In this document: one piece after another, positions 3,004-20,007 of the stretch
Layout of the letters: each line of letters begins with the position of its first letter
Position numbering within the stretch: position 1 is the first letter of the stretch
NCBI GenBank assembly: GCA_017543335.1
Contig: JAFYGE010000045.1
Coordinates: 1 to 36,897 of the forward strand
Reading direction: 5' to 3'
DNA length: 36,897 nucleotides
Source: Ruminococcus sp.
Lineage (GTDB): Bacteria; Bacillota; Clostridia; Oscillospirales; Ruminococcaceae
Notes under the pieces: generated by a model
What the model was told of the DNA's origin: nothing
What the model saw: the letters and a program-made list of their open reading frames with translations, nothing else
Database searches by the model: none
Translations under genes and position numbers: made by a program

Positions 3004-3019
3004 GTTAGGTAATTCTAAC
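3004..3019. promoter_or_regulatory. GTTAG-N6-CTAAC operator-like palindrome at the eno start point
   Basis: GTTAG (3004-3008), GTAATT, CTAAC (3015-3019). The site begins six bases after the -10 box, so a bound protein would cover the start of transcription. An imperfect copy, GTTAG-N6-CAAAC, lies upstream at 2939-2954. The same palindrome stands before the iron and flavodoxin genes of this window. Function as an operator is inferred. Confidence 0.5.
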
Positions 3020-5352: not shown

Positions 5353-6150
5353 TTACCACTTAAATGTTGCCCAGCGGTCATTTACTTTTGGCAGAAGAAG
5401 GGCAAAAAGTTTAGCACGTATACTGTATTTTTTCATTTCTTCATTAAAACTGTGTTCTTCAACAAGCTCGATTCCGTCTGCTAAATCAGCTATTTCCTGT
5501 GCTGAATCAGTACCGGATTTAAAATGTGCATTTGTATTTTTAACAGTATCGTGATGCTTTTCACTCTTCTGCATCAACTTACAATTTTGTTCAGCAATAA
5601 GAATTCCGCCATCCGGAAAATTATTTTTCAGTATTTCTAAAAAAGTACGTATCTGTTCAAGTGTCAGGTACATAAACAAGCCTTCTGCTATGAAAACAGG
5701 TTTTGATTTTCTGTCTGCAAGTGCTTCTTGCACTGGTCCGCACCAATCGTCCTCCAACGCACTTCCTGCGAGCATTGTAACACGTTTACGCTCTGAAAAA
5801 GCTTTTTTTCTCGCAGCGATAGTGTCCGGAAGATCAAGATCAAACCAGATTATCCTGCCGTTATCGACTCTTGAAAAGCGGTCGTCAAATCCTGCACCCA
5901 CGTTTACGATAACTGTATCAGGTGCGTTATTAATGATCCCCTTTAACTGGCGATCAAGCATGATAGTTCGTGCAACAACTCCCTCGTGCGACATAAACTT
6001 GTCGTAAGGTTTAGTATCGATTTTAAGCGTTCTGATGATCTCTACAGCCTTTTTATCCTTTATGCGTGGATTCTTTCGCAGAGTTTCATTTGCTTTTACT
6101 GCAAGAGGAATAAGAGCTGTTGTCTGTACATCACCTAATTTAAGTTCCAT
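5353..6150 (-). CDS. SAM-dependent methyltransferase, leucine carboxyl methyltransferase (LCM/TcmP-like) family
   Basis: This is a 265-residue class I methyltransferase. The SAM-binding motif I is VNVGAGFDDRF (82-92), followed by FDLDLPD (103-109) and AEGLFMYL (155-162). ART and LDRQL near 60-69 match the substrate-end signature of the LCM/PPM/TcmP family, which methylates carboxyl or hydroxyl groups of small molecules or proteins. The substrate is unknown. GGGAG stands at good distance before the ATG. A 19-bp perfect inverted repeat lies just upstream (6169-6212) and contains the operator-like core shared with the iron genes. The pairing with a metal transporter suggests a metal-linked job, for example modification of a metal-binding molecule, but that is inference. 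Confidence 0.88.
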   Translation of the reverse strand: MELKLGDVQTTALIPLAVKANETLRKNPRIKDKKAVEIIRTLKIDTKPYDKFMSHEGVVARTIMLDRQLKGIINNAPDTVIVNVGAGFDDRFSRVDNGRIIWFDLDLPDTIAARKKAFSERKRVTMLAGSALEDDWCGPVQEALADRKSKPVFIAEGLFMYLTLEQIRTFLEILKNNFPDGGILIAEQNCKLMQKSEKHHDTVKNTNAHFKSGTDSAQEIADLADGIELVEEHSFNEEMKKYSIRAKLFALLLPKVNDRWATFKW

Positions 6151-6168: not shown

Positions 6169-6212
6169 ATGATATAATTATAGTTAGTATATTCTAACTA
6201 TAATTATATCAT
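6169..6212. promoter_or_regulatory. 19-bp perfect inverted repeat over the methyltransferase promoter
   Basis: The arms ATGATATAATTATAGTTAG (6169-6187) and its exact complement (6194-6212) flank TATATT. The centre is GTTAG-N6-CTAAC (6183-6198). Each arm contains TATAAT. The minus-strand copy (6203-6208), with TTGAAC at 6228-6233 and a 19-bp spacer, is the likely methyltransferase promoter, which places the operator core on its start point. The long symmetric arms exceed what one dimer needs. Confidence 0.6.
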
Positions 6213-6367: not shown

Positions 6368-7801
6368 TTAGTTTTTAGCCTTCTCCAAAGCATCCCTTGC
6401 AGCTTCTATGATACCGTTAGAGCTATATGTAGCACCTGAACAAGCATCAACACCGTCAGCACTTATGCTCTTCTGTATCTGCGGTATAACGTGCTGCATA
6501 GCATCGCTGAAATAGTCGGGATCGTCGTCATCAGCGTATGCGGAGAAACCTGTAATAAAGTCGTTTTCAATAGTTATCGAAACATGGACTGAACCTGCAT
6601 AACCATCGCCTGTTCCTTCAAAAGTTCCGTTTTTAAAGCGGTATGAAGGCTGTTCTTCGGCAGGAGGAGTTTCCTGTGTATTTTCCTTAGGCGGTTCAGG
6701 AGTTTTTTCCTGCTGATTTTCTGCCGGAGTTTCGTTTTCTTCAGGAACATTCTCTTCCTGAGTTTCTTCATTTACTGCTTCTTCTGTCTCAGTTGTATTT
6801 TTTGTGTCAGTAGTCTGAGTTGAAGTAGTTAAATCTGTTCCGGTCGAACCGGTCGCAGTACCTGAAGTTGAGGTTAAAGATGTTGTTGTTGTCAGAGCAG
6901 TATTCGTTATAGTAGTTGTAACAGAAACAGTTCCGGCATTAGAAGAAGCAGCATTATCTGTTGGTGCTTCAAATACAAATGTTGCCGGATTTTCCTTTGT
7001 AGCTTGAATTGTCTCTTTATTTCCGGTATTGCGGGAAACAAATCCAATTATACACAAAGGCACTATCATCGCACAGGCACATACAACATTAGGAACTGTT
7101 TTAGCTTCCGGCTTCTTTTTAGAAATATATGCCTTGCGGATACGCATAACTGCATAACCGATAAATACAGCACTGTAAACTATAACACTAAGAAAATATC
7201 CGTCCTTCCCCTTCTGAGCCTTCGGAATGAAAAGAACCATTACATGAACAAAAATAAATCCATAGAAAATATAAGCTGTACGCTGTATCTTCTTCCACGT
7301 TTTAGGATTCATCTTTTTACGTATCGTCTTGAATGACATAATAGTCAGCGGTATCATTATGATTACCATTACAAGACATACTGCACTTGTTATAACAAAG
7401 CTGCGAAAAGCTTCGCCTGAACCTATTCTGTCACGGATAATGTCGGAGATATACTGTATACCATATGTAACTACGTGAGAGAGCGTGAGTATAGCAGCAG
7501 TTATGGAAAGCTCACCACGTATCGGCATGATCTTTTTAATAGCAAATGTGCCGTTAGGCAGAGCTCCTGCCCACATAACGACTGCCCAGAAAGCGACTCC
7601 CAAAGCACCTCTTGTGAATACTCCGAGGACATAGTCTTTAACAAAGCTGTTTGATATAGTTACATTTGACTGTTCTATTATGATAGTTACGACTGTCAGT
7701 ACAGCAGCTGATGCATAGAATAACACAGGGTGTTTTTTCAGCGGTTTATCCAGACAAAAAGCAACGATCACCGCTATTACAAGTGAAATTAAAAATAACA
7801 T
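6368..7801 (-). CDS. Ferric-reductase-like membrane protein fused to an extracytoplasmic FMN-binding domain
   Basis: The protein has 477 residues. Residues 1-225 carry six hydrophobic helices resembling the ferric-reductase-like/MsrQ heme domain, with His109 (LTLSHVVTYG) and His186 (FIFVHVMVL) as candidate heme ligands and MNPKTWKKIQRTAY before the latter. A seventh helix covers about 236-254. A Thr/Ser- then Glu/Pro-rich linker runs from 275 to 385. The last 90 residues form an FMN-binding domain ending in DACSGATYSS; in this family the Thr of SGAT (here T458) is covalently flavinylated by ApbE. Electrons would pass from inside through heme to surface FMN. GAGGT stands before the ATG. It is last in the flavodoxin/surface protein/reductase operon. 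Surface iron reduction is inferred. No ApbE is seen in the window. Confidence 0.88.
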   Translation of the reverse strand: MLFLISLVIAVIVAFCLDKPLKKHPVLFYASAAVLTVVTIIIEQSNVTISNSFVKDYVLGVFTRGALGVAFWAVVMWAGALPNGTFAIKKIMPIRGELSITAAILTLSHVVTYGIQYISDIIRDRIGSGEAFRSFVITSAVCLVMVIIMIPLTIMSFKTIRKKMNPKTWKKIQRTAYIFYGFIFVHVMVLFIPKAQKGKDGYFLSVIVYSAVFIGYAVMRIRKAYISKKKPEAKTVPNVVCACAMIVPLCIIGFVSRNTGNKETIQATKENPATFVFEAPTDNAASSNAGTVSVTTTITNTALTTTTSLTSTSGTATGSTGTDLTTSTQTTDTKNTTETEEAVNEETQEENVPEENETPAENQQEKTPEPPKENTQETPPAEEQPSYRFKNGTFEGTGDGYAGSVHVSITIENDFITGFSAYADDDDPDYFSDAMQHVIPQIQKSISADGVDACSGATYSSNGIIEAARDALEKAKN

Positions 7802-7824
7802 AAAATATACCTCTTCGCAGTATT

Positions 7825-7855
7825 TGACCTCCGCAGCACTATGCCACAGAGGTCA
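7825..7855 (-). other. Intercistronic hairpin
   Basis: TGACCTC (7825-7831) and GAGGTCA (7849-7855) form a perfect 7-bp stem between the surface-protein gene and the reductase gene. No T-tract follows. It may act as an RNA processing or stability element that tunes the reductase below the surface protein. Confidence 0.35.
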
Positions 7856-7877
7856 TTATTTATTATGAAAGGAAAAT

Positions 7878-9377
7878 TTAATCGTTCTTTCTTCTCATTA
7901 CAAATGCTGCTGCACCTGCAAGAGCTAAAATTGCTGCCGGAACTGCTGCACCAGTTACTCCGGTCTTAGGGCTGTCAACGTTATTTGATTCAGCCTTATT
8001 GCCAGCAGATTTTTTTGTCTTACTTGCTGCTGATGTAGATTTTGAATCTGTTGTCACCGTAGTAGTTGAAGTAACTTCTGCTGAAGATGTGTTAGTTGTT
8101 GTTACAACAGGTTCTTCAGGCTTTATCTCAAAATTATAAGGAGATGTATAACCTGTAGCAGTTACTGAAATTGTGTAATTGCCGCTTCCGTCGAATACAT
8201 CATTTTCGCCGGACTTTGCAGCAAAGTCGATAGTTCCGTCCTCACCGACTATCTTAACAGAGCCTCTTCCGGAAGCACTATAAGTTGTTTCATTAACTGT
8301 AAGTGATGCGATGTTTTTGATGAAGTTAGCTGCATCTTCATCTGAGAAGCCGTCAGCCTTTACAAGCTTACCGTCCTCATATTTAACAGGAATATCTTCT
8401 GATGAAAGTATAAATGCAGCTGAAAGCGGAGCATACTTGCCTGTAGCATCGTTTACTGTAACAGTATATTTGCCCGGTTTAGCATTTGTGTAGCTTATTT
8501 CAGTTTCACTTGCTTTAAATTCTTCACCAACTGTGATATTCTTTCTGTAGTCATCAGGGAAACCGGTAAATGTAAGTGAAGTTTTGCCTGTACCGGCAGT
8601 GCCGTCCTCAGCTTTTATCTCGCCCTTGAACTTTACAGGGAGATACTGATCGCCGATATTTACATTTGTGTATCCGTCAAGGGTTATGAAAGTAACTGAT
8701 GTAGCAGTTTTGCCCATTGAGCTTGCATAATCCTCAAATCTCAGTTCGTTTCCGTGACCTTCTTTTGTAGTAATACCAGTTGACCATGATATCTGACCAT
8801 TTCTCCAGATATTTTCAAGGTGACGGAGTGCATATTTATCGCCCTCCTTAGTATTGACTATAACACCATAGAGGTCAGCTCCCTCAGGAAATCCCTTTAC
8901 ATTAAGCTGATAGTCACCGTATCTTGTTGATGTTGAAACAGTCGCAGAGCCGTCAACGTTCTGTTCGCCGTTTGAATCGACAAGCTTTGATACACTAAGT
9001 GCATCACCGGAAAGTGAAACTCTCTTATATGCAGCAGGCTTTTCATCGAGTACCTTGAAGTCATATTTTGCAAGCTTATCAACATCGCTTGCATTTACTT
9101 CAACAGGGAACGTAACGCCGAGGATTGTACCGTTTCCGTCGTTATATGTTCCTGCTACAAGCTTGCCGGGTTCATTCATTGCCCATTTGCTCTTTGTAGC
9201 GGATGATACTGCATCAACTTCATAAGCATTGCCTATTTCAGCTGAATAAAAGTCTGCATAAGGGATATTCATAGTGCCGTAAACTTTTTCACTGCTCGCA
9301 GCATTTGCTGGTAAAGAAGCTGCTGCAAGTGCAGTCATGCAAGCTGCCGCACTGATGATAGATGTGATTTTCTTCAT
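7878..9377 (-). CDS. Wall-anchored surface protein with an N-terminal Tp47-like domain
   Basis: The protein has 499 residues from the ATG at 9377, which is preceded by a perfect TAAGGAGG. A frame extending further upstream exists, but the signal peptide (Lys-Lys, hydrophobic stretch, ANA cut near 26) fixes this start. Residues 32-70 (YGTMNIPYADFYSAEIG, then DAVSSATKSKW) closely recall the start of Treponema pallidum lipoprotein Tp47. IWRNGQISWSTGI further on fits its later SWWKTGR-like region. The middle looks beta-rich. A Thr/Ser-rich stalk leads to SPKTG (469-473), a hydrophobic helix and RRKND, the layout of a sortase signal. The flavodoxin stop codon overlaps its ribosome site, so the two genes are coupled. 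The context suggests binding of iron, heme or a flavin partner. Ligand and function are unknown. Confidence 0.82.
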   Translation of the reverse strand: MKKITSIISAAACMTALAAASLPANAASSEKVYGTMNIPYADFYSAEIGNAYEVDAVSSATKSKWAMNEPGKLVAGTYNDGNGTILGVTFPVEVNASDVDKLAKYDFKVLDEKPAAYKRVSLSGDALSVSKLVDSNGEQNVDGSATVSTSTRYGDYQLNVKGFPEGADLYGVIVNTKEGDKYALRHLENIWRNGQISWSTGITTKEGHGNELRFEDYASSMGKTATSVTFITLDGYTNVNIGDQYLPVKFKGEIKAEDGTAGTGKTSLTFTGFPDDYRKNITVGEEFKASETEISYTNAKPGKYTVTVNDATGKYAPLSAAFILSSEDIPVKYEDGKLVKADGFSDEDAANFIKNIASLTVNETTYSASGRGSVKIVGEDGTIDFAAKSGENDVFDGSGNYTISVTATGYTSPYNFEIKPEEPVVTTTNTSSAEVTSTTTVTTDSKSTSAASKTKKSAGNKAESNNVDSPKTGVTGAAVPAAILALAGAAAFVMRRKND

Positions 9378-9387
9378 GTAAGCCTCC

Positions 9388-9792
9388 TTATGCAAGCTGT
9401 GCAGCAAGCTCTTTGAGTTTTGCAAGGTCATCGTCTGAAGGAGCTTCGTTAACGATAAATCCTTCGTCACCTATAAGGTCTGCACCGGCTGCCTTTGTAC
9501 GGTCATACCAGTTTCTCATCCACTCGCCGTCTCCCCAGCCATATGAACCGAAAAGAAGAACTTTCTTTCCGCTGAGTGAACCTTCGATACCTGTGAAAAA
9601 TGGCTCGAATGTATCTTCTTCAAGCACCTCTGCACCCATTGCAGGGCAGCCAAAAGCGAATGCGTCATAGTCGGCAGCGTTGCCGCTGAAGTCTGATACC
9701 TCAAAAAGCTCTGCATTTGCACCTTCAGCTACTGCTTTTGCCATAGCCTCAGTATTGCCTGTGCCGCTCCAAAAAATTACTGCTGTTTTCAT
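9388..9792 (-). CDS. Short-chain flavodoxin
   Basis: This is a 134-residue cytosolic FMN electron carrier. The phosphate-binding loop SGTGNTE lies at 9-15. The isoalloxazine-binding regions are FGCPAMGAEVLEEDTFEPF near 47-65 and GSYGWGDGEWM near 82-92. The length fits short-chain flavodoxins. AGGAGG stands before the ATG. It is the first gene of a three-gene operon, and its TAA is part of the next gene's ribosome site. In many bacteria flavodoxin replaces ferredoxin when iron is short, and the palindrome upstream (9914-9939) fits such control. It could also feed electrons to the reductase encoded two genes downstream. Confidence 0.95.
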   Translation of the reverse strand: MKTAVIFWSGTGNTEAMAKAVAEGANAELFEVSDFSGNAADYDAFAFGCPAMGAEVLEEDTFEPFFTGIEGSLSGKKVLLFGSYGWGDGEWMRNWYDRTKAAGADLIGDEGFIVNEAPSDDDLAKLKELAAQLA

Positions 9793-9913
9793 GAGTATTC
9801 CTCCTATTTTAGTCTTTATATAAGACTATTATTTGATCTATCGAACAGGATATTCCTGCAGCGATCATGTTTAATGCCGAACGTCAGATTCCGGCGACTG
9901 TTATATGTATTTT

Positions 9914-9939
9914 ATATAGTTAGATATAGCTAACTATAT
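9914..9939. promoter_or_regulatory. Perfect 10-bp palindrome upstream of flavodoxin
   Basis: ATATAGTTAG (9914-9923), ATATAG, CTAACTATAT (9930-9939). The core is GTTAG-N6-CTAAC, as in front of the methyltransferase and enolase genes. It lies about 120 bases before the flavodoxin ATG. A second dyad, TAGTCTT-N5-AAGACTA (9810-9828), lies next to the ribosome site. No strong -35/-10 pair was recognised here, though A/T-rich -10-like sequence overlaps the palindrome. Confidence 0.6.
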
Positions 9940-9943
9940 GATC

Positions 9944-9977
9944 TAAGTAAGAGCCTCATGGTTAAGGCTCTTACTTA
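9944..9977 (-). terminator. Hairpin at the end of the feoB unit
   Basis: TAAGTAAGAGCC and GGCTCTTACTTA form a perfect 12-bp stem with a 10-base loop, 44 bases after the small FeoB-partner gene. No long T-run follows on the minus strand, so it is a probable but imperfect terminator separating feoB from the flavodoxin promoter. Confidence 0.55.
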
Positions 9978-10021
9978 TGCTCTGTCTCCATAAAATTACG
10001 TTGTAAATTCTGCTTCTTAGA

Positions 10022-10165
10022 TTATTTATGGCATTTTCCGTGCATAGCACAGTTCTGACAACCGTGCGAGCATCCGCCCTTTCCAGAGCGTTTATCTTTT
10101 ATCATAGTATGAATTACAAGTCCCACTGTAAGCAGTAAAACTAAAAGTACCAAGAAAGTGCCCAT
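10022..10165 (-). CDS. FeoB-associated Cys-rich membrane protein
   Basis: I found this 47-residue gene by reading the gap after feoB. It has a single hydrophobic helix (about residues 4-20), a basic stretch (KDKRSGKGG), then a tail with GCSHGCQNCAMHGKC, giving four Cys and three His. This matches the small Cys-rich partners encoded next to feoB in Firmicutes (the FeoB_associated family), thought to help Fe(II) transport at the membrane. AGGAGG lies at the right distance before the ATG, and feoB ends 15 bases upstream, so the genes are co-transcribed. The Cys/His tail could bind iron, an inference. Confidence 0.9.
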   Translation of the reverse strand: MGTFLVLLVLLLTVGLVIHTMIKDKRSGKGGCSHGCQNCAMHGKCHK

Positions 10166-10180
10166 AATAATTCCTCCTGT

Positions 10181-12664
10181 TTAGGAACGAGATTTGCTTA
10201 CTTTAACATTTTTATCAAGCTTTGTAGCTTCCTTATAAGGTCTTACAAGGAGATAAACAATAAGTGCGATTATTGCAATTGCAAAGATAAGACCAACAAT
10301 GTGTACATTTCCTGTGAACATACAACCGAGCTGATAGATTATAAGTGATACAGCATATGCAAATCCGCACTGATATCCGATAGCGAATAATGTCCACTTA
10401 GGATTGTTCATCTCACGTCTGATAGCACCGATAGCAGCAAAGCAAGGTGCACAAAGCAGATTGAATGCAAGGAATGAGTAACCTGCAAGCTTTGTTAAGC
10501 CTTCAAAGTCGAGAACTCCGAATACTCCGACAACCTCTTCCTTAGCAACAAGACCCATAACTGTTGCAACTGTTGCAGCAGCATCGTCAAATCCAAGAGG
10601 TGCAAATAACCACTTGATAGCATCGCCAAAGTGACCGAGAATAGAATCTTCAAGTTCAAGATCAGCATACCAGCCAAATGAACCGTCTGACCAGCCAAGT
10701 GTTGAAGTTATCCAGATTACAATGGATGAAAGAAGGATTATAGTACCGGCTTTCTTAATGAATGACCAGCCACGCTCCCACATTGAACGAAGTACGTTGC
10801 TTACAGTTGGCATATGATATGCTGGAAGCTCCATTACGAATGGTGCAGGATCACCTGCGAACATTTTTGTCTTTTTAAGCATGATACCAGAGATTACTAT
10901 TGCTGCCATGCCGAGGAAGTATGCACTTGGACCTACCCACCATGCACCTCCGAAAAGTGCAACTGCGATCATAGAAATGATAGGGAGTTTAGCTCCGCAT
11001 GGGATGAAAGTAGTAGTCATGATAGTCATACGTCTGTCACGCTCATTTTCGATAGTACGTGAAGCCATGATACCAGGAACACCACAACCTGTACCGATAA
11101 GAATCGGAATGAAGGACTTACCTGAAAGACCAAATCTGCGGAAGATACGGTCCATGATGAATGCAACTCTTGCCATATAACCGCAAGCTTCAAGGAATGC
11201 AAGGAAGATAAAGAGTACGAGCATCTGTGGAACGAATCCAAGAACAGCTCCCACACCGCCGATAACACCGTCAACTATGAGGCTCTTGAGCCAATCAGCA
11301 CAGCCTATCTTGTCAAGACCTTCCTCAGCATAACCCGGAATACTGTTTACGAATCCCTTGTAATCAGCCATATCCGGTGCTGTGAATTCGCCCTCTTCAT
11401 CGAGACCTTCGCCAATAGCAGCGTCTATATCGTATACAGCTTCAGGATTAAGAGGAGTTTCCTCATCCTCATCGTCCTCAGCATATTCAGCTTTTTTGTA
11501 GAATTCATCTCTGTAGAATCCGTACTGCTCCTCAAAGTCTGCAAATTCGCCTGACTCGAAAGCATCTTTTATATCTTCTGCACCGTGAATGTCTTCATCT
11601 TCACAAGCTGCATCGATAACTTCTCCTACTTCATCAGTAAAGATATATTTATCTGCCCATTCTTTTGTATCGTCCTCATAATCTTTTTTCCCTGAGGATG
11701 AAACTATGAAACCGTCACCAAAAAGATTATCATTTGTCCAGTCGGTGAGAGTTCCTCCGAGAGTGGTTATAGACACATAATAAACGATTATCATTATCAG
11801 TGCGAAAATAGGAAGTCCGAGGAAACGGTTCGTTACAACTCTGTCTATCTTATCTGATGTATTCAGTTTACCTGCACTCTTCTTTTTATAACAGGACTTA
11901 ATAACGTCAGCTATGTAGATATAACGCTCGTTTGTTATGATACTCTCTGCATCATCGTCAAGCTCCTTTTCAGCAGCAGCTATATCTTCCTCGATATGCT
12001 TTTTGACATTCTCAGAGATATTAAGTTTCTCCATGACCTTATCGTCACGCTCAAAAACTTTTAATGCGTACCAACGCTGCTGCTCCTCAGGCATATCGTG
12101 AACTATTGCTTCTTCAATGTGAGCAAGTGCGTGTTCAACAGGTCCTGAGAAAGTATGCATCGGAACTGTCTTGTCGCTCTTAGCGGCATTTATAGCAGCT
12201 TCAGCAGCTTCCTGAACTCCGGTACCTTTAAGAGCTGATATCTCAACAACTTTACATCCAAGCTGTTTTGAAAGTCCTTCAATATTTATCTTGTCGCCGT
12301 TCTTTTTAACGACGTCCATCATATTTACAGCTATTACGACCGGAATACCAAGTTCAGTCAGCTGTGTTGTAAGGTAGAGGTTACGTTCAAGGTTCGTACC
12401 GTCAATGATGTTGAGGATAGCATCCGGACGCTCACCTATGAGATAATTTCTTGCAACTACTTCCTCCAGAGTATATGGAGAAAGTGAATAAATTCCCGGC
12501 AGGTCAGTGATAGTAACATCGCTGTGCTTTTTCAGTTTACCTTCCTTTTTCTCAACTGTAACACCCGGCCAGTTTCCGACAAACTGATTTGAGCCTGTCA
12601 GAGCATTGAAGAGGGTTGTTTTGCCGCAGTTCGGGTTTCCCGCAAGGGCAATACGTATATCCAT
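10181..12664 (-). CDS. feoB: Ferrous iron transport protein FeoB
   Basis: This is an 827-residue Fe(II) importer of the inner membrane. The N-terminal G domain shows G1 GNPNCGKT (9-16), switch I NWPGVT (31-36), G3 DLPG (54-57), G4 NMMD (114-117) and G5 SALK (143-146). A helical GDI-like region reaches about 260. Two Gate repeats form the membrane part, with conserved Cys in GTGCGVPG and FIPCGAKLP. The odd feature is an insertion of about 140 residues (318-456) between the first two membrane helices, with about 45 Asp/Glu, predicted outside the membrane; E. coli FeoB is much shorter there. The ribosome site is AAGGAAG. The gene follows two feoA genes but has its own operator-like site. It is the iron entry route for the redox island around it. 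Confidence 0.97.
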   Translation of the reverse strand: MDIRIALAGNPNCGKTTLFNALTGSNQFVGNWPGVTVEKKEGKLKKHSDVTITDLPGIYSLSPYTLEEVVARNYLIGERPDAILNIIDGTNLERNLYLTTQLTELGIPVVIAVNMMDVVKKNGDKINIEGLSKQLGCKVVEISALKGTGVQEAAEAAINAAKSDKTVPMHTFSGPVEHALAHIEEAIVHDMPEEQQRWYALKVFERDDKVMEKLNISENVKKHIEEDIAAAEKELDDDAESIITNERYIYIADVIKSCYKKKSAGKLNTSDKIDRVVTNRFLGLPIFALIMIIVYYVSITTLGGTLTDWTNDNLFGDGFIVSSSGKKDYEDDTKEWADKYIFTDEVGEVIDAACEDEDIHGAEDIKDAFESGEFADFEEQYGFYRDEFYKKAEYAEDDEDEETPLNPEAVYDIDAAIGEGLDEEGEFTAPDMADYKGFVNSIPGYAEEGLDKIGCADWLKSLIVDGVIGGVGAVLGFVPQMLVLFIFLAFLEACGYMARVAFIMDRIFRRFGLSGKSFIPILIGTGCGVPGIMASRTIENERDRRMTIMTTTFIPCGAKLPIISMIAVALFGGAWWVGPSAYFLGMAAIVISGIMLKKTKMFAGDPAPFVMELPAYHMPTVSNVLRSMWERGWSFIKKAGTIILLSSIVIWITSTLGWSDGSFGWYADLELEDSILGHFGDAIKWLFAPLGFDDAAATVATVMGLVAKEEVVGVFGVLDFEGLTKLAGYSFLAFNLLCAPCFAAIGAIRREMNNPKWTLFAIGYQCGFAYAVSLIIYQLGCMFTGNVHIVGLIFAIAIIALIVYLLVRPYKEATKLDKNVKVSKSRS

Positions 12665-12689
12665 TATATATTCTTCCTTCCTGATATTT

Positions 12690-12705
12690 GATAGATTAAG
12701 CTAAC
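12690..12705. promoter_or_regulatory. Operator-like site before feoB
   Basis: GATAG-N6-CTAAC, one base from the palindrome seen at eno, the methyltransferase and flavodoxin. It overlaps a local dyad, ATTAAG-CTAA-CTTAAT. On the minus strand a TATTAT box stands six bases before it, the same geometry as at eno, but no good -35 box was found. Confidence 0.45.
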
Positions 12706-12714
12706 TTAATGATA

Positions 12715-12738
12715 ATAAAAAAGAGGAATTCTCCTCTT
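12715..12738 (-). terminator. Terminator or attenuator between feoA and feoB
   Basis: AAGAGGA (12721-12727) and TCCTCTT (12732-12738) pair around ATTC. Six T residues then follow on the minus strand. The feoA stop codon lies inside the stem, so ribosomes finishing feoA could disturb the hairpin. It may limit read-through into feoB. Confidence 0.6.
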
Positions 12739-12961
12739 ATTCGCTGACTTCAAGCATTTCTGCGTCAGCCTTGCGGATAGATAACTCATATCCACGAACA
12801 GTTACTTCTATCGGATCTCCAAGCGGTGCGACCTTGCGAACGGTCACATCAGTTCCCTTTGTGATGCCCATATCCATTATTCTGCGTCTGACTGCTCCCT
12901 CACCATGTACCTTGACTATCTTTACTGTTTTGCCGATAGCTGTTTCTCTCAAAGTTTTCAT
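12737..12961 (-). CDS. feoA: FeoA-domain protein, second copy
   Basis: This 74-residue SH3-like FeoA protein is a cytosolic partner of FeoB. MKTLRETAIGKTVKIVKVHG is followed by RRRIMDMGITKGTDV, PLGDPIEVTVRGYELSIRKADAEML. This is the full family pattern, including the (R)xxMDMGIxxGT turn and the closing Leu-Arg-Lys strand. The ATG at 12961 has GGAG four bases away with GAGG further upstream; a TTG 15 bases earlier is less likely. It begins 11 bases after the first FeoA gene, so both share one transcript. A hairpin over its stop codon separates it from feoB. Confidence 0.93.
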   Translation of the reverse strand: MKTLRETAIGKTVKIVKVHGEGAVRRRIMDMGITKGTDVTVRKVAPLGDPIEVTVRGYELSIRKADAEMLEVSE

Positions 12962-12972
12962 TTTACTCCACC

Positions 12973-13185
12973 TCAAATCATAATTTTTCTTGCAAGTTCT
13001 TCGCTGATCGCTACTCTCGACTCCTTGACCTTTACGATCACATTGTCACCAAGTCGTGAAACCAGACTTATACAGCCGCCAACGTGAAACCCAAGATCCT
13101 CCAGATGCTTTTTCACCTCTGGATTTCCGCCTATCTTACGAATAACAAGTTCCTTTTCCTGTTCAGCCATACTGAGCGGCATCAT
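12973..13185 (-). CDS. feoA: FeoA-domain protein, first copy
   Basis: The protein has 70 residues and is a divergent FeoA-type SH3-like domain: KELVIRKIGGNPEVKKHLED, LGFHVGGCISLVSRLGDN, VIVKVKESRVAISEELARKI. It has the same fold signature as the second copy but a different N-terminus and little shared sequence. The two may be partners with separate jobs, for example FeoA and FeoC-like roles, which cannot be decided here. ATG-ATG starts the gene after an AGGGTGAG ribosome site. It is first in the unit and stands behind the clearest promoter of the island. Confidence 0.88.
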   Translation of the reverse strand: MMPLSMAEQEKELVIRKIGGNPEVKKHLEDLGFHVGGCISLVSRLGDNVIVKVKESRVAISEELARKIMI

Positions 13186-13229
13186 TTTCTCACCCTTCCA
13201 CCTATTATAATTGAAAGTGCAATCACATA

Positions 13230-13245
13230 GGTTAGCACTCTAAAA
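13230..13245. promoter_or_regulatory. Operator-like dyad at the feoA start point
   Basis: GGTTAG-CACT-CTAAAA is related to the GTTAG/CTAAC palindrome but has a 4-base centre. It lies seven bases downstream of the -10 box (13253-13258) on the minus strand, over the expected start point. Confidence 0.4.
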
Positions 13246-13252
13246 CATTATT

Positions 13253-13281
13253 ATAATAGCACTCCTGATATTTTTTGTCAA
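13253..13281 (-). promoter_or_regulatory. Promoter of the feoA genes
   Basis: On the minus strand TTGACA (13276-13281) and TATTAT (13253-13258) are separated by 17 bp. Transcription would start near 13246, about 60 bases before the first feoA ATG, inside the operator-like dyad. Confidence 0.75.
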
Positions 13282-13316
13282 TCATATCATAGAAAGTTTG
13301 TATACGATAACAAAAT

Positions 13317-13332
13317 ATTAGATTTTCCTAAC
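13317..13332. promoter_or_regulatory. Upstream operator-like site of feoA
   Basis: ATTAG-N6-CTAAC, one base off the common palindrome, 36 bp upstream of the feoA -35 box. Together with the dyad at 13230 it brackets the promoter, as a looping or activating pair might. Confidence 0.45.
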
Positions 13333-13354
13333 AAAACTAATATATAATAGTGCC

Positions 13355-13398
13355 AAAATAAAAAATGCGACACCGCAGCATTATGCGGTATCGCATTT
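13355..13398 (-). terminator. Terminator of the acetyltransferase gene
   Basis: AAATGCGACACCGCA (13363-13377) and TGCGGTATCGCATTT (13384-13398) form a 15-bp stem with one mismatch. On the minus strand it runs into TTTTTTATTTT. A second small hairpin, GGGAGC-N9-GCTCCC (13405-13425), precedes it. It insulates feoA from the gene behind. Confidence 0.88.
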
Positions 13399-13432
13399 CT
13401 CTAAGGGAGCATTATATCAGCTCCCCTGTTTA

Positions 13433-14062
13433 TTATTCAAACAATTGACCGGGTAATTTTAGTTTTTCTTTGTGAGAGAAGTTCTTATCGAACTCCTCAA
13501 CGTCAGCATCATCGACGTAGTAACCATCCGGAGTAAGATACACACCTGTAACATCACTTAGATAGTCAGGTATCAGCTCCTTGCAAAGAAAGAACGACTG
13601 ATCCGCATCCTCAGGCATATCGTGATATCTTATACCAAACTTTCGGGCATAGTCAAATCCGCTTTTACCGTAGAAATCTATATTACCCTCGAAAAGAACA
13701 GCTCCAAAATCAAGCTTTGCAGCTTCTTCTATAGAGTAGTCCAGCAAAATTTTTCCGAGTCCCATTCGCTGTAACTCAGGCAAAATACCTATTGGACCCA
13801 TTGTAAGTACCGGTACTTCCCGACCGTCATCAGCATTGATAATGGTTTTCATGAACATATTCTGACCGATGATCCGACCGTCCATTTCCATTACAAAATC
13901 AAGTTCTCTGACGAAAGCCGGATCGTCACGAAGCATATGCAGCACATAATGCTCACTGCACCCCGGACGATATACATTCCAGAACGCTTCTCTTACGAGA
14001 TCTTCAACATCTCTATAGTCTTCCTTTTTTTCAAATCTAATTATGTAATCATTTTTATTCAT
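13433..14062 (-). CDS. GNAT-family N-acetyltransferase (YhbS-like)
   Basis: The 209-residue cytosolic enzyme is predicted to move an acetyl group from acetyl-CoA to an amine. The acetyl-CoA loop is QRMGLGK (98-104), following the strand TMGPIGILPEL. FYGKSGFDYARKFGI further on is the usual GNAT beta6-beta7 region. An acidic 60-residue tail lies beyond the core. The substrate is unknown. AGGAGG stands before the ATG and a strong terminator follows. It lies 123 bases downstream of glgA on the same strand, with a hairpin (14106-14137) between, so read-through from the glycogen operon is possible. Confidence 0.88.
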   Translation of the reverse strand: MNKNDYIIRFEKKEDYRDVEDLVREAFWNVYRPGCSEHYVLHMLRDDPAFVRELDFVMEMDGRIIGQNMFMKTIINADDGREVPVLTMGPIGILPELQRMGLGKILLDYSIEEAAKLDFGAVLFEGNIDFYGKSGFDYARKFGIRYHDMPEDADQSFFLCKELIPDYLSDVTGVYLTPDGYYVDDADVEEFDKNFSHKEKLKLPGQLFE

Positions 14063-14105
14063 TGTTTAACCTCCTGAAAATTGTTGACTTCAATTGCTTT
14101 TCAAG

Positions 14106-14137
14106 CGGGAGGTTTACAGATCGCAGCAAACCTCCCG
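14106..14137 (-). other. Hairpin between glgA and the acetyltransferase gene
   Basis: CGGGAGGTTT and AAACCTCCCG form a perfect 10-bp stem with a 12-base loop. There is no T-tract on the minus strand. It could end or protect the glg mRNA, or be a leader structure of the next gene. Confidence 0.4.
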
Positions 14138-14185
14138 GTCAGCCTACAATCTCCAGTTTACCGTAATTATTCAAACAGCACTCTC

Positions 14186-15610
14186 CTAAATTTTATCATT
14201 TAACAATTCTTCATATACTTCAATATACAGGTCAGCAGAAGCTTCCCAGCTGAAGTCGCATGACATTGCTCTCTTTACAAGAGCGTTCCATTTTTTCTTA
14301 TCGTTATAATCACTTACCGCACGTTTGACTGCATCAAGCATATCATTAGCATTGATAGTTTTGAACGTGAATCCATTTCCGTCGATACCGCCGTTATCAC
14401 GTACAGAATCACGGAGTCCGCCGGTCTCTCTTACTATCGGAGCAGTTCCGTATCTCATAGCTATCATCTGAGCCAGACCGCAAGGCTCGCTCATAGACGG
14501 CATCAGGAACATATCAACTCCGGCATAAATACGGTGTGATAATTCCGGAATAAAGCCAAGTGTTACGGATACTCTGTCAGGGTATCTTGCTGCCATTTCA
14601 CGGAAAAAGTCCTCATAGATCTTCTCACCGCTTCCAAGAACAGCAAACTTTATTCCCATATTGACCATTTCTTCAAACACACAGCGTATCAGGTCGATAC
14701 CCTTATGCTTCACGAATCTTGTAACGATACCTATGACCGGTTCATCTCCCGGAGCAAGTCCGAGCTCTTCAAGCATAGCTTTTTTACACTTAGCTTTGCC
14801 TGAAATACTCTTTGCACTGAAATGTGCGTCTATTTCCGGATCGTGCTCAGGGTCATAACGCTGAGTATCGATACCGTTCAGTATACCTTTCAATTTATAC
14901 TGCTTTGTAACAAGTATGCGGTCGAGTCCATGAGCATACCACGGGTCGAGAATCTCCCATGCGTAGCTCGGACTTACAGTCGTTATCTTGTCAGCAGTTT
15001 CAATTGCACCTTTAAGCATATTTACGTATCCGTCATAATCGAGCAGACTTGCATTATATGCAGGAATACCCATAAGTTCATTGAGAACTTCTTTTCCGTA
15101 TTTGCCCTGATACTCGATATTATGGATAGTAAACACAGTTTTTATCCCGTCATAACCCTGCTGATACTTATAATAAACGCTGTAATAAACAGGTATAAGA
15201 GCAGTCTGCCAGTCATTGCAGTTTATGATATCGGGAGTAAAATCGATGTACTTCAGCATTTCAAGAACAGCTCTGTCGAAGAATACGAATCTTTCGCAGT
15301 CATCATAAAAGCCGTACAGACCGTCTCTTGAAAAGTAGTACTCATTATCTATAAAATAGTATGTAATGCCGTCATATTCAGTTTTGAAGATACCACAGTA
15401 CTGTTTACGCCATGAAACGTCTACTGTGATATTCTTCACGAACTCCAACTCAGAGCTAAGCTCCGGCTTTATTGCCTTATAAAGCGGAATAACAACGCAG
15501 CATTCATGTCCTTTAGCCTTTATGGCTTTAGGGAGCGATCCAACCACGTCTGCAAGTCCGCCTGAAGCTGCAAAGGGTACAGCTTCACTGGAAGCAAACA
15601 AAATTTTCAT
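14186..15610 (-). CDS. glgA: Glycogen synthase (ADP-glucose, GT5)
   Basis: The 474-residue protein adds glucose from ADP-glucose to growing alpha-1,4-glucan. It is a GT-B fold enzyme with an N-terminal start, MKILFASSEAVPF, and a C-terminal nucleotide region, PSMSEPCGLAQMIAMRYGT then RETGGLRDSV. ITRFVKHKG-type and VLGSGEK motifs lie between. The N-terminal KxGG loop reads AASGGLADV: Ala15 stands where E. coli and B. subtilis have the Lys that contacts ADP-glucose. I believe related Clostridia share this, but have not checked. It is last of glgB-glgC-glgD-glgA, 16 bases after glgD, with an AGGTGAT-type ribosome site. Confidence 0.96.
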   Translation of the reverse strand: MKILFASSEAVPFAASGGLADVVGSLPKAIKAKGHECCVVIPLYKAIKPELSSELEFVKNITVDVSWRKQYCGIFKTEYDGITYYFIDNEYYFSRDGLYGFYDDCERFVFFDRAVLEMLKYIDFTPDIINCNDWQTALIPVYYSVYYKYQQGYDGIKTVFTIHNIEYQGKYGKEVLNELMGIPAYNASLLDYDGYVNMLKGAIETADKITTVSPSYAWEILDPWYAHGLDRILVTKQYKLKGILNGIDTQRYDPEHDPEIDAHFSAKSISGKAKCKKAMLEELGLAPGDEPVIGIVTRFVKHKGIDLIRCVFEEMVNMGIKFAVLGSGEKIYEDFFREMAARYPDRVSVTLGFIPELSHRIYAGVDMFLMPSMSEPCGLAQMIAMRYGTAPIVRETGGLRDSVRDNGGIDGNGFTFKTINANDMLDAVKRAVSDYNDKKKWNALVKRAMSCDFSWEASADLYIEVYEELLNDKI

Positions 15611-15626
15611 ACAGGATCACCTACCG

Positions 15627-16748
15627 TCAAATTCTACCGTCTTTTCCTATATATAGTGGATATGTCTCTGAACCTGTCAGGACTTTTTCATCACTTATCT
15701 GAACATTTTTATCTGTTATTACTGATGAGATACTGCAATTCTTACCTACCTTTGTTCCTTGCAGCAATACAGCATTTTTAATCACTGTACCTTTTCCAAC
15801 TCTTACGCCTCTGAACAGAATTGAATTCTCAACTGTTCCCTCAACTATACAGCCGTCAGCGATAAGAGAATTCTTTATATTTGATTCAAGTCCGTATTTA
15901 ACAGGACCATTATCTCCTATTTTAGTGTATACAGGCATATTCTTCTTGAAGAGAGCGTTTCTCTTTTCTGTATCAAGAAGAAGCTGATTTGCAAGATAGT
16001 AATTCTGAACACTGTCTATTCTTGTGAAGAACTCCTTGTGCTCATATCCCATGATATTGTACTCATCTTTTTTGCCCTGAAGGATAGTCCTTGTAAAGCT
16101 GGACTGATTTCTGCTTGCTGCATCAAAAACTATCTTTTTGAGGAAATCCTTGCTGATTATGAACATTTCGAGCCAGATATTGCACTCGCCTGTTATCTGC
16201 GGATCGACAAGAACGTCCTTCAGACGGTTATCAGCATCAAATTCAAGTATAGTCGAGCAGCTGTTCTTTTCACTGTCATGGATACCCTTGCTGTATATCA
16301 ATGTGATATCAGCTCCGGAGCTCATGTGCTGTTTAAGTACAGGATTAAAATCGATAGTAGTTATAACATCGCAGTTTGCCATTATAACGTACTTTGCGTT
16401 TGAATGCTCAACGAAGCTCCAAACGTTATTAAGAGCATCAAGTCTGCCCTTGTATATACCTCCTGTCTGACTGTATGGCGGGAGCAGATGAAGTCCGCCT
16501 TTTTTACGTGAAAGATCCCAGTCACGGCCTGAACCGAGGTGGTCAAGAAGTGAACCGTAGTTCGACTTTGTAATTACTCCGACCTCTGAAACACTTGAAT
16601 TGACCATATTTGAAAGTGGGAAATCTATAAGGCGATAACGTCCGCCAAAAGGTATCGAACCCATTGTACGCTGTTTTGTAAGCTCGCTGACATAAGAATC
16701 ATGCATACTTGCGAAAATAAGACCTAAAACATTATAATTTACACTCAT
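15627..16748 (-). CDS. glgD: GlgD, regulatory-type ADP-glucose pyrophosphorylase homologue
   Basis: The 373-residue protein is a GlgC paralogue known in Firmicutes to pair with GlgC. The nucleotide loop is degenerate: FASMHDSYVSELTKQR replaces the [16 protein letters not shown] of GlgC, and ANCDVITTIDF replaces [25 protein letters not shown] and a left-handed beta-helix tail (NSLIADGCIVEGTVENSILF) are kept. It is therefore likely non-catalytic and regulatory. AGGAGG lies before the ATG, and the gene follows the glgC stop by 17 bases. With glgC broken (next entries) this subunit could be left without an intact partner. Confidence 0.95.
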   Translation of the reverse strand: MSVNYNVLGLIFASMHDSYVSELTKQRTMGSIPFGGRYRLIDFPLSNMVNSSVSEVGVITKSNYGSLLDHLGSGRDWDLSRKKGGLHLLPPYSQTGGIYKGRLDALNNVWSFVEHSNAKYVIMANCDVITTIDFNPVLKQHMSSGADITLIYSKGIHDSEKNSCSTILEFDADNRLKDVLVDPQITGECNIWLEMFIISKDFLKKIVFDAASRNQSSFTRTILQGKKDEYNIMGYEHKEFFTRIDSVQNYYLANQLLLDTEKRNALFKKNMPVYTKIGDNGPVKYGLESNIKNSLIADGCIVEGTVENSILFRGVRVGKGTVIKNAVLLQGTKVGKNCSISSVITDKNVQISDEKVLTGSETYPLYIGKDGRI

Positions 16749-16765
16749 ACTAATAACTCCTCCTG

Positions 16766-17131
16766 TCAGATACTTTCGCCAATTATCTGCTTAGGCTCTA
16801 CGACCTTATTTTCAGATATTGTAACATTGTGTCCGACAACAGCGATGCCCCAATCGTCCCTGTTTTCAATATTTTCAGGACTTGTGCCTATCTTTGCACC
16901 GCTTTCGATAACGCTGTCGCTTCCTACTATTGCGTACTCAACTACAGCACCGGATTTGATAACAGTACCCGGCATGATTATACTATAGTTTACTGTAGCA
17001 CCTTCTTCGATAGTAACTCCGGAGAAGAGTATCGAGAAATCTACTGTTCCATCGATCTCGCTTCCTTCTGAGATCATTGAATTTTCTATATTTGCATTAT
17101 CGCCAACATACTGCGGCGGCATATTGTTATT
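16766..17131 (-). pseudogene. glgC: C-terminal part of glgC, cut off by an in-frame TGA
   Basis: This is the left-handed beta-helix and tail of ADP-glucose pyrophosphorylase: MPPQYVGDNANIENSMISEG, then hexapeptide repeats. It continues the N-terminal half in the same frame: ...WKIYS, TGA, Asn-Asn-Asn, MPPQY. In B. subtilis GlgC the same junction runs WRIYS into PPQY without a stop. The ATG at 17122 has no ribosome site, so independent translation is doubtful. The part ends with its own TGA and is followed by glgD. It is translated only if the stop is read through, or if the stop is a sequence error. Confidence 0.85.
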
Positions 17132-17992
17132 TCATGAATATATCTTCCAGCTTGGATCATAGAGATCAAGAGGTACACTTGGACTGAGAAGGTCCATATT
17201 AGCCTCCCAGAGAGAATCGAGAGTTCCAACGTCCTTCCAGTAGCCCTCGAACTCATATGCAAAGAGTCTCTGCTTATCACGCAGCATAGAAGTGATAATA
17301 TCCTTACCGAAGTCCTTTGACCATGATTCACCACGGTCACGCTTTGCATTAGCATCCTCTTCATTTTCAATGAGATACTTTTTAAGCTTATCCCAACTGA
17401 ACACATAAATACCCATTGAAGCAAGAGTAGACTTAGGCTCCTTGGGTTTTTCAACGAAATCTATTACCTGATTCTGATCGTCACATATCATGATACCAAA
17501 ACGTGAAGCCTCAGACTTAGGAACATCAATAACAGATATTGTACAATCTGCGTTATTAGCTATATGAAAGTCCACCATTTTGGAATAATCCATTTTATAT
17601 ATATGGTCACCGCCGAGAACTACTACATATTCAGGGTCATAACGCTCAATGAATCTCATATTCTGATAGATAGCATTAGCAGTACCCTCATACCATGAAG
17701 CACCTGCCTGAGTCTCGTAAGGCGGCAGAACATGGACACCGCCATTCATTTTGTCAAGGTCCCATGGCTGTCCGTTGCCTATATACTCATTAAGAACAAG
17801 CGGCTGATACTGTGTAAGTACGCCGACTGTATCTATACCGGAGTTTGTGCAGTTTGACAGAGGGAAATCAATAAGGCGATATTTACCGCCGTATGGAACT
17901 GCTGGTTTTGCCACATTCTTAGTCAATGCATATAATCTGCTTCCTTGTCCACCCGCAAGAAGCATAGCAACGACTCTTTTCTTTGTGTACAT
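17132..17992 (-). CDS. glgC: GlgC N-terminal catalytic part, truncated by TGA
   Basis: These 286 residues are the nucleotidyltransferase domain of glucose-1-phosphate adenylyltransferase, which makes ADP-glucose. The loop LAGGQGSRL (12-20), [23 protein letters not shown] with its catalytic Asp, [10 protein letters not shown] and GYWKDVGTL are intact. The protein stops at SWKIYS, just before the beta-helix that normally completes a protein of about 400 residues and mediates tetramer formation. The stop is a single TGA with no frameshift. TGA is a normal stop here (ybeY, the CYTH gene and the first feoA end with it), so recoding of the whole genome is unlikely. AGGAGG lies before the ATG, and glgB ends 29 bases upstream. 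Confidence 0.93.
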
Positions 17993-18021
17993 ATTATTCC
18001 TCCTAATAAATGATATAATTA

Positions 18022-20007
18022 TTACTTTTCAGCTTTGGCAGACTGCCTCGTCTTTGCCGGAGCTTTAGCCTTCTTTTCAGTATCAGAAGCTTTCTCAGTT
18101 TTAGGAGTTCTCTTCTTTACAGGAGAGAATTTCAGGTATATTACTGAGAGAGGAGCGAGGGTCATAGATATGCTGTCGTCGAATCCGTGCATACCTACAC
18201 TGTCTGATTTGAAGGACTTTTCTGTTATTCCCGATCCACCGTACTCTACGGCATCGGTATTGAATACAAGCTTATATCTTCCCTTAAACGGCACACCTAT
18301 ACGATAATCTCTGCGTTCAACAGGAACAAAATTACACACCGTTATTATTTCGTCCCCATTGTCATCTATACGCCTGAAGGCAATAACACTTTGCTTGTAA
18401 TCGTCATTTGATATCCAGCTGAATCCGCTCCATGAATCGTCATTCTGCCATAACGGAGAATTCTCGGTATAGAATTTATTCAGCTTTTCTGAAAATTTAA
18501 GAAGATTTCTATGGGATTCAAAATCCATAAGTCCCCAGTCGAGCTGTGACTTATAGTCCCATTCTTTCATTTGTCCGAATTCCTGACCCATAAACAAGAG
18601 CTTCTTACCCGGATGAGCCATCATATACGCAAGAAATGCACGATATGAAGCGAATTTCTGGTCATACTCGCCCGGCATCTTGTTTATCATCGAGCACTTT
18701 CCGTGAACTACCTCGTCATGTGATATTGGGAGTATATAGTTCTCGGAAAAAGCATAGAAGAACGAAAACGTAAGTTTATCGTGGTTGAATGCACGATAGA
18801 TAGGATCAAGAGACATATAACTGAGCATATCATTCATCCAGCCCATATTCCACTTGAAGTTGAAGCCGAGACCGCCGATATCAGTAGGCTTGGTAACAAG
18901 CGGCCATGCCGTTGATTCTTCAGCGATCATAAGAGCGTCCGGATGCTTGAGGAAAACAGCTTCATTGAGGTGCTTGAGGAACTCAACAGCCTCAAGGTTC
19001 TCGTTTCCGCCATAGATATTTGCAGCCCACTCTCCGTCACGTCTATCATAGTCCAGATAGAGCATCGAAGCGACTGCATCAACTCTAAGACCGTCCACAT
19101 GGAATTCATCGAACCAGTAATTTGCACTTGATATAAGGAACGAGCACACCTCTGCTTTTCCGTAATCAAAGACTCTGGTTCCCCATGCTTTATGCTCTTT
19201 TTTGCGGTCGTCAGTGTATTCATAGCAGCAGGTGCCGTCGAATTCATAGAGTCCCGCCTCATCCTTAGGGAAATGAGCAGGTACCCAGTCGAGGATCACA
19301 CCGATGCCGGCTTCGTGGAACATATCGATCATCATTCTGAGATCGTCAGGAGTTCCGTAGCGTGAAGTCGGGGCAAAATAGCCTGTGACCTGATAGCCCC
19401 ATGAGCCGTCGAACGGATATTCAGTAAGGGGCATGAACTCAACGTGGGTATATGACATTTTTTTAAGATATGGTATGATCTCTTTGGCAAAGGTAACATA
19501 GTCCATGTAAACATCATTGCCGTAATTTTTCCATGAGCTGAGGTGAACTTCGTATACATTCACCGGACTCTTGTAAATACTTTTGTCATGCTTCTCCGCA
19601 TACCAATCCTTGTCTTTCCATTCATAACTGCTTTCAAATATTTTAGAAGCAGTACCCGGACGGGTCTCGAAATGTGAGCCATAGGGATCGGCTTTGAGAA
19701 GCGTTCTTCCATCCTTTGTTTCGATGCTGTACTTGTAAGCGTCGAACTGTTTAAGCTTGGAGATCTCAGTCTCCCATACACCGTCTGCGATGAGAGTCAT
19801 AGGATTTTTAGTTCTATCCCACTCGTTAAAATCACCGACAACAGATATGCTTACAGCATTAGGGGCCCAAACTCTGAAAATGAAGCTGCGGCCTCTGCCC
19901 TTTTTCTTGGAGTGAACTCCGAAGAATTTGTATGACTCGTAGTTTTTTCCCTGGTAGAACAGATACAGCGGAAAATCATTTTGATTTGAATTTGTAGTAA
20001 CTGACAT
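18022..20007 (-). CDS. glgB: 1,4-alpha-glucan branching enzyme (GH13)
   Basis: The 661-residue enzyme makes alpha-1,6 branches in glycogen. An N-terminal CBM48-like domain ([20 protein letters not shown], 44-63) precedes the GH13 barrel: LDWVPAHF (239-246), [10 protein letters not shown] with nucleophile Asp310, IAEESTAWP with the acid Glu near 363, and SHDEVVHGK with Asp431. A C-terminal beta domain follows. After it comes a basic tail of about 30 residues rich in Lys, Ala, Thr and Pro, not typical of GlgB, perhaps for binding glucan or nucleic acid. AGGAGG stands before the ATG. It is first in the glycogen operon, with a promoter at 20032-20060. Confidence 0.97.

Follow-up and report, generated by a model that had tools for sequence, protein, structure and literature searches.

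A Tp47-like surface protein beside a heme-FMN fusion and feo genes in Ruminococcus: a candidate electron relay for iron reduction

The subject of this analysis is a three-gene tandem within a 36,897-nucleotide stretch (the window) of a 2.45-Mb metagenome-assembled genome of a rumen Ruminococcus, which encodes a flavodoxin, a Tp47-like sortase-anchored surface protein and a membrane protein joining a heme domain to a flavin mononucleotide (FMN)-binding domain. On balance, we lean towards reading the tandem as a metal-regulated electron relay across the Gram-positive envelope for assimilatory iron reduction, based on domains, motifs, gene order, a fold match, a shared palindrome and a trend in tether length, all drawn from sequence or from a predicted model. 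In the proposed relay, electrons would come from a carrier in the cytosol, for which the co-encoded flavodoxin is a possibility, and enter a STEAP-like membrane domain that has a single b heme (H109/H186). From there they would move on to an extracytoplasmic FMN domain, to which the ApbE of the genome would attach the flavin at T458. A disordered tether of about 146 residues would let this FMN domain reach the Tp47-like protein at the cell surface, which may hand electrons to Fe(III) or Fe(III) complexes, or present such substrates, and Fe(II) would then be imported by FeoB. What we infer within this scheme is the source of the electrons and the way they flow, the flavinylation, the contact between the proteins, Fe(III) as the substrate and the role of the palindrome as a metal-regulator site.

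Tp47 is a major lipoprotein antigen of syphilis and has a solved structure. In Clostridia of the rumen and in other anaerobic Clostridia, its fold occurs time and again next to flavin electron-transfer domains or fused to them, which offers a concrete and testable function for the fold, and flavin-based iron reduction in Gram-positive bacteria would gain a wall-anchored partner and possibly a length-matched tether. Passages of a 2025 review discuss host effects of Tp47 rather than its physiological role (PMC12417408), and among the open-literature papers listed in our searches none joined Tp47 with flavinylation, ApbE or extracellular electron transfer. Flavinylated extracytosolic reductases with a link to iron uptake are known as a kind; in the literature searched, we found no account of a Tp47-like partner, of its recurrence, of a tether trend or of a shared palindrome.

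The tandem and its heme-FMN fusion

Read along the minus strand, which carries all of these genes, the order is two feoA-like genes (12737..12976 and 12973..13185, named from sequence and position alone), feoB (10181..12664; TIGR00437, 534 bits, cut-off 315.65), a small Cys-rich membrane protein of 47 residues (10022..10165) that stands beside feoB in relatives too, and then the tandem. Its first gene encodes a short-chain flavodoxin of 134 residues (9388..9792; TIGR01753, 133.7 bits, cut-off 123), followed by the 499-residue surface protein (7878..9377) and the 477-residue heme-FMN fusion (6368..7801). The original prediction, which described three coupled genes with feoB and feoA as neighbours, thus holds for the layout of the locus. 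For the surface protein, translation was taken to start at the ATG at 9377, which is preceded by an AGGAGG-like site and followed by a signal-peptide-like sequence; the GTG at 9470, given as the start in the list of open reading frames (ORFs), was rejected for its overlap with the flavodoxin gene. An inverted repeat, TGACCTC/GAGGTCA, was noticed by eye between the surface-protein and heme-FMN genes (7802-7877); it lacks a T run and is perhaps a site of mRNA processing or attenuation.

The fusion itself is as predicted, with a ferric-reductase-like membrane domain (7082..7801; PF01794, 31.0 bits, cut-off 28) and an FMN-binding domain (6383..6604; PF04205, 48.2 bits, cut-off 22) both scoring over their cut-offs. 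H109 and H186, located in two predicted helices, are the only invariant histidines in 16 of 16 fusion sequences, which suggests that the membrane domain holds one heme. Because two invariant histidines fit one heme and not two, we call the domain 'PF01794 superfamily, STEAP-like' rather than MsrQ, and STEAP metalloreductases are among the closest known systems. The proposed DxxSGAT flavinylation motif is present as DACSGAT (residues 452-458; 6428..6448) with T458 as its predicted target, and D452, S455, G456 and T458 are invariant in the same 16 sequences. An ApbE encoded in the same genome scores above cut-off (PF02424, 276.7 bits). Between the two domains runs an S/T/E/P-rich tether of about 146 residues (6644..7081), in which the predicted local distance difference test score (pLDDT) falls below 50 at residues 283-384.

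Passages of Meheust et al. (2021, PMC8238504) describe MsrQ-like (PF01794) flavinylated clusters, some of them tied to iron uptake. These share with our loci a PF01794 heme domain, FMN_bind and apbE, and part of them also include a ferrous iron transporter. As described there, however, they have two heme-binding sites and often an NAD-binding domain, whereas here there are two invariant histidines and a Pfam scan of the heme-FMN protein gave no NAD-binding domain; iron transport here falls to FeoB, and a Tp47-like surface protein joins the set. An FMN-binding domain, ApbE and a PF07456 FAD-export subunit also occur in Listeria-type extracellular electron transfer (PplA, FmnB/ApbE, EetB), as outlined in parts of PMC9973259, but no PplA-like protein was recognised among the window proteins scanned, and the present system has a heme-FMN fusion and a Tp47-like partner instead.

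Recurrence of the Tp47-like protein with flavin and heme domains

Including the window, 37 loci with a Tp47-like N-domain were gathered from genome searches and one contig scan, and were scanned with hidden Markov models built for this analysis. Gene counts cover the stretch examined at each locus, some of them on short contigs, and the close relatives that the contig scan brought up go by the names Ruminococcus sp. or R. flavefaciens. An FMN-binding domain was found in 32 loci, a heme domain in 29 and a heme-FMN fusion in 28, followed by flavodoxin (19), feoB (15), apbE (12), PF07456-type (9) and NusG_II-type (8) genes. The pairing of the surface protein with FMN and heme genes therefore recurs in other genomes as had been anticipated, but the case for flavodoxin as a fixed member of the set is weak, since in 18 of the 37 loci, some on short contigs, none was seen in the stretch examined. 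Since a single scan supplied roughly half of the loci, all of these being Ruminococcus contigs, a count by genus is the more independent evidence. By that count, 15 genera in five families were covered, of which 12, together with the Lachnospiraceae locus L049, show the link, G055 and G680 are without it, and G793/G664 show it only below threshold.

Five loci are without an FMN match: L032, where the heme ORF is truncated, L070, L071, L027 and L072. In L070 and L071 the Tp47-like chain itself carries DAKTGATYT or DARTGATYT; one L070 copy scores 17.1 bits against the PF04205 cut-off of 22, and L071 is not among the PF04205 matches. The two near-alike L070 genes (8166-10577 and 12426-14726; 766 and 803 residues) join an FMN_bind-like segment to the Tp47-like domain, the longer copy with a Cys/Gly-rich insert. 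A Fer4_5 protein, labelled NapH-like, replaces the heme domain in L030 and L049. In L106, a single protein of 1,335 residues, encoded divergently from apbE, combines SLH repeats, a Tp47-like domain of the DAVSSAT type, HID (22.6 bits, cut-off 22.3), PF14889 (176.5), PF14888 (220.4) and FMN_bind (35.1, cut-off 22).

This repeated adjacency to, and fusion with, FMN-binding domains points to redox work and bears on a further explanation, in which the Tp47-like protein acts in the cell wall, as an enzyme or a scaffold, tied to the reported penicillin binding of Tp47 and co-operonic through shared conditions only. Tp47 is named as a penicillin-binding protein in the title of a 2002 structure paper cited in PMC12417408. 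Lipoprotein, sortase, dockerin and SLH forms of the Tp47-like protein all occur among the loci, however, and we consider a cell-wall role very improbable. The dockerin forms are seen in L026 (4107-5624) and L027 (4060-5550), where the protein ends in a dockerin-type module in place of the sortase signal, which suggests attachment to a cellulosome-like scaffold.

The form of anchor varies together with the length of the heme-to-FMN tether. Where the partner has a sortase signal, the tether spans 109-167 residues (23 loci: 22 by script, and L024, with the C-terminus SPDTG, by eye); it is 171 residues in L026 with its dockerin partner and 37-68 residues in the four lipoprotein loci L028, L029, L068 and L069. 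Tethers of 166 (L107) and 182 residues (L108) occur where the neighbouring FMN proteins look SLH-anchored and are without a Tp47-like domain. Such a trend would be expected of a tether that reaches a partner at wall distance.

Across wider samples, the fusion profile had matches in 160 of the 393 class genomes, though in many of them only the FMN part was matched. The surface protein was found by protein search in 14 of 197 family genomes, its own included, three of the 14 by the C-terminal region only. Its N-domain profile matched 7 of 393 class genomes, again with its own among them, and only its own among 348 phylum genomes. PF14889 at E up to 0.01 matched 5 of 295 order genomes, one over cut-off; the corresponding phylum scan gave 0 of 348 with control genomes unmatched too, and is hence uninformative on absence. 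As judged from these profiles, the distribution of the Tp47-like domain is patchy and the heme module is the wider-spread part.

The surface protein and its conserved loop

Likeness to Tp47, claimed from the start, was borne out by structure comparison and intermediate sequences rather than by a Pfam match of the window protein. Its predicted model matches the Tp47 fold over residues 30-323 at 18% identity, and 1o75 ranked first when Foldseek candidates were re-aligned with VIA-align, although it was absent from the 50 Foldseek matches listed. Pfam, NCBIfam and PDB sequence searches with the window surface protein gave no Tp47 match, and neither PF14889 nor PF14888 matched it at E up to 1 in the Pfam scan. 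The link came through the model and intermediate sequences: partners in L029, L068 and L073 match PF14889 below cut-off, and the L106 protein exceeds the cut-offs of both families. Since the window protein does not reach the Pfam cut-offs, we term it a 'Tp47-like homologue' rather than a filed Tp47 member. It shares with Tp47 (TP0574) the fold and a DAVSxAT loop, but differs in its sortase anchor in place of a lipid, its HID domain and its position beside heme-FMN and feo genes.

Behind the N-terminal Tp47-domain-a-like domain (residues 31-247; 8637..9287) lie a Shr-like_HID domain (PF07550; residues 342-412; 8142..8354; 31.8 bits, cut-off 22.3) and an NPXTG-type sortase sorting signal, with SPKTG, a hydrophobic stretch and RRKND (7884..7973; NF033846, 33.1 bits, cut-off 23.5), in agreement with the sortase-type protein first proposed. 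The original prediction mentioned neither HID nor the conserved DAVSSAT loop described below. HID is a feature of Shr-type heme/hemoglobin receptors, and NEAT heme-binding domains are part of Shr as well; Pfam scans of the window surface protein gave no NEAT match at E up to 1. The main task of the protein might be that of a receptor, with heme, hemoproteins or ferric chelates bound through HID, and it would then have no electron-transfer role of its own. Of 18 relatives, 14 also match HID at E up to 1, and there is a weak IsdC match (TIGR03656, 18.6 bits, cut-off 155.85), mostly over the wall-anchor end. However, L028, L029 and L068 keep the Tp47-like domain and heme-FMN partner, and their lipoprotein-type partners gave no PF07550 match at E up to 1. 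The original suggestion that the surface protein holds heme draws on PF07550 and is not general. Invariant residues, moreover, gather in the DAVSSAT loop rather than in HID; the invariant or nearly invariant columns of the 18-sequence alignment include neither Cys nor His, nor any inner Met. Overall, a receptor with no electron-transfer role seems unlikely to us.

In and just behind the DAVSSAT loop (residues 55-61; 9195..9215), D55, A56, V57, S59, A60, T61 and K64 are invariant in all 18 sequences of this alignment. Residues 54-69 form the longest stretch with pLDDT below 50 inside the folded part of the model. Over 40 Tp47-like domain hits, the motif reads DAVSSAT (30), DAVTSAT (5), DAVTSST (3) or DSVTSAT (1), with one unreadable, so that A56 and A60 are not fixed in more distant relatives; Tp47 has DAVSRAT. 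Passages of one report give the ApbE motif as D-x-x-[S/T]-G-A-[S/T] and state that a Gly to Ala change cuts flavinylation to about half (PMC12052999). The canonical Gly is found in 0 of the 39 readable Tp47-like loop motifs. Among 77 FMN_bind hits in these loci, 70 contain the searched motif, and 11 of those are without Gly (such as DTVSSAT, DSVSRAT and DIVSRAT; two come from weak hits of 31 and 21 bits). Because the same replacements occur in FMN_bind domains of relatives, the loop could be an ApbE site, and Tp47-like domains are found both fused to FMN_bind and beside apbE. We therefore raise, tentatively, the possibility that ApbE has a new class of substrate in the Tp47-like domain, where the Thr of DAV[S/T]SAT (T61) would bear covalent FMN. 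The surface protein would then be the second flavin station of a wall-spanning relay, and Tp47 itself might be an electron-transfer flavoprotein rather than primarily a penicillin-binding protein. The constant Ser in place of Gly and the lack of fold similarity to FMN_bind keep our confidence in such a site low. Common ancestry of the two domains, suggested by their like motifs, was unsupported (hhalign Prob 7).

A palindrome shared with feoA and the case for iron

A palindrome upstream of the flavodoxin gene (GTTAGATATAGCTAAC; 9919..9934) recurs about 146 bp upstream of the first feoA (TTAGATTTTCCTAA; 13318..13331), and, with the feoAB adjacency, upholds the predicted iron link of the operon. 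Two further copies, as GTTAG-N6-CTAAC, precede enolase (eno; 3004-3019) and a leucine-carboxyl-methyltransferase-like gene (5353-6150; site at 6183-6198). The exact pattern TTAG-N6-CTAA occurs 4 times in the window against 0.76 expected, a count reached by 1 of 100 shuffles. Over the 37 loci (582 kb) it occurs 76 times, as compared with 2-33 times each for 11 other TTAG permutations in the same frame. The 300 bp upstream contain it for 16 of 39 Tp47-like ORFs, against 0-3 for the permutations, and for 14 of 26 feoA ORFs, where second copies in tandem were scored as misses; for ZIP and enolase ORFs the counts are 2 of 4 and 3 of 3. The first feoA is preceded by it in 12 of 13 loci, and it is missing in L042 and in the second feo cluster of L031. 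When the limit is widened to 1,600 bp, 32 of 37 loci have a copy upstream of the Tp47-like ORF; for most Ruminococcus contigs the distance is about 1,300 bp, and the site then precedes a DUF2325-DUF3793 pair that itself stands before the flavodoxin gene. Although the search did not demand them, a G comes before the pattern at 39 of 47 distinct sites and a C after it at 35 of 47; this gives the extended form GTTAG-N6-CTAAC, of which the genome has 8 sites, 3 of them in the window, with 0 for the reversed control. The element looks like a metal-regulator operator; the genome has two DtxR-type and one Fur-type regulator matches, and picking one of them as its regulator would be guesswork. In L033 (6618-7590) and similar contigs the DUF2325-DUF3793 pair lies between feoB and flavodoxin, and in the genome of the window a similar pair, identified by eye, lies elsewhere behind an extended palindrome.

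These data also bear on whether a real relay might instead be dissimilatory, carrying fermentation electrons to extracellular acceptors as in flavin-based extracellular electron transfer, with the Feo neighbourhood incidental. Flavinylated relays can be respiratory, according to passages of PMC8238504, and in 12 of the 37 loci an apbE gene is close to that for the Tp47-like protein, often with NusG_II-type and PF07456-type genes; outside the Ruminococcus contigs, feo genes were seen in the stretches examined only in L069. In that locus, however, which belongs to a different family, feoAB is divergent from the surface-protein/heme-FMN pair, and this, the palindrome shared with feoA and the ZIP or P-type metal ATPase genes nearby in 11 of the 37 loci speak against such a role. 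We judge a dissimilatory role to be rather improbable.

Several observations nonetheless weigh against an assimilatory iron relay. Of the 15 loci with feoB, 14 are the window and Ruminococcus contigs of one scan, and L027 and L072 have no FMN or heme gene in the stretch examined. Twenty fusion-profile loci chosen for strong match contain the heme domain in 19 cases and the Tp47-like domain and feoB in none, so the heme module works without a Tp47-like partner elsewhere. The tether trend is phylogenetically confounded, as the four lipoprotein cases stem from two families. With one mismatch allowed, the palindrome shows no excess in the window (11 found, 21.2 expected). It stands within 300 bp directly before only 2 of 19 flavodoxin and 4 of 12 apbE genes, and before 0 of 7 DUF6110 ORFs. 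Its occurrence before enolase (in 3 of 3 loci) and the methyltransferase gene implies that the regulon is not purely iron.

Among neighbouring genes, ZIP was found in 4 loci, and seven (L035, L036, L037, L043, L047, L048 and L069) have a DUF6110 gene close to the operon with a heavy-metal P-type ATPase gene behind it; that this pair might be related to ferrosome iron storage is only a thought. In the window, 14186-20007 appears by eye to hold an ordinary glycogen synthesis group, comprising glycogen synthase, two glucose-1-phosphate adenylyltransferase-like genes and branching enzyme.

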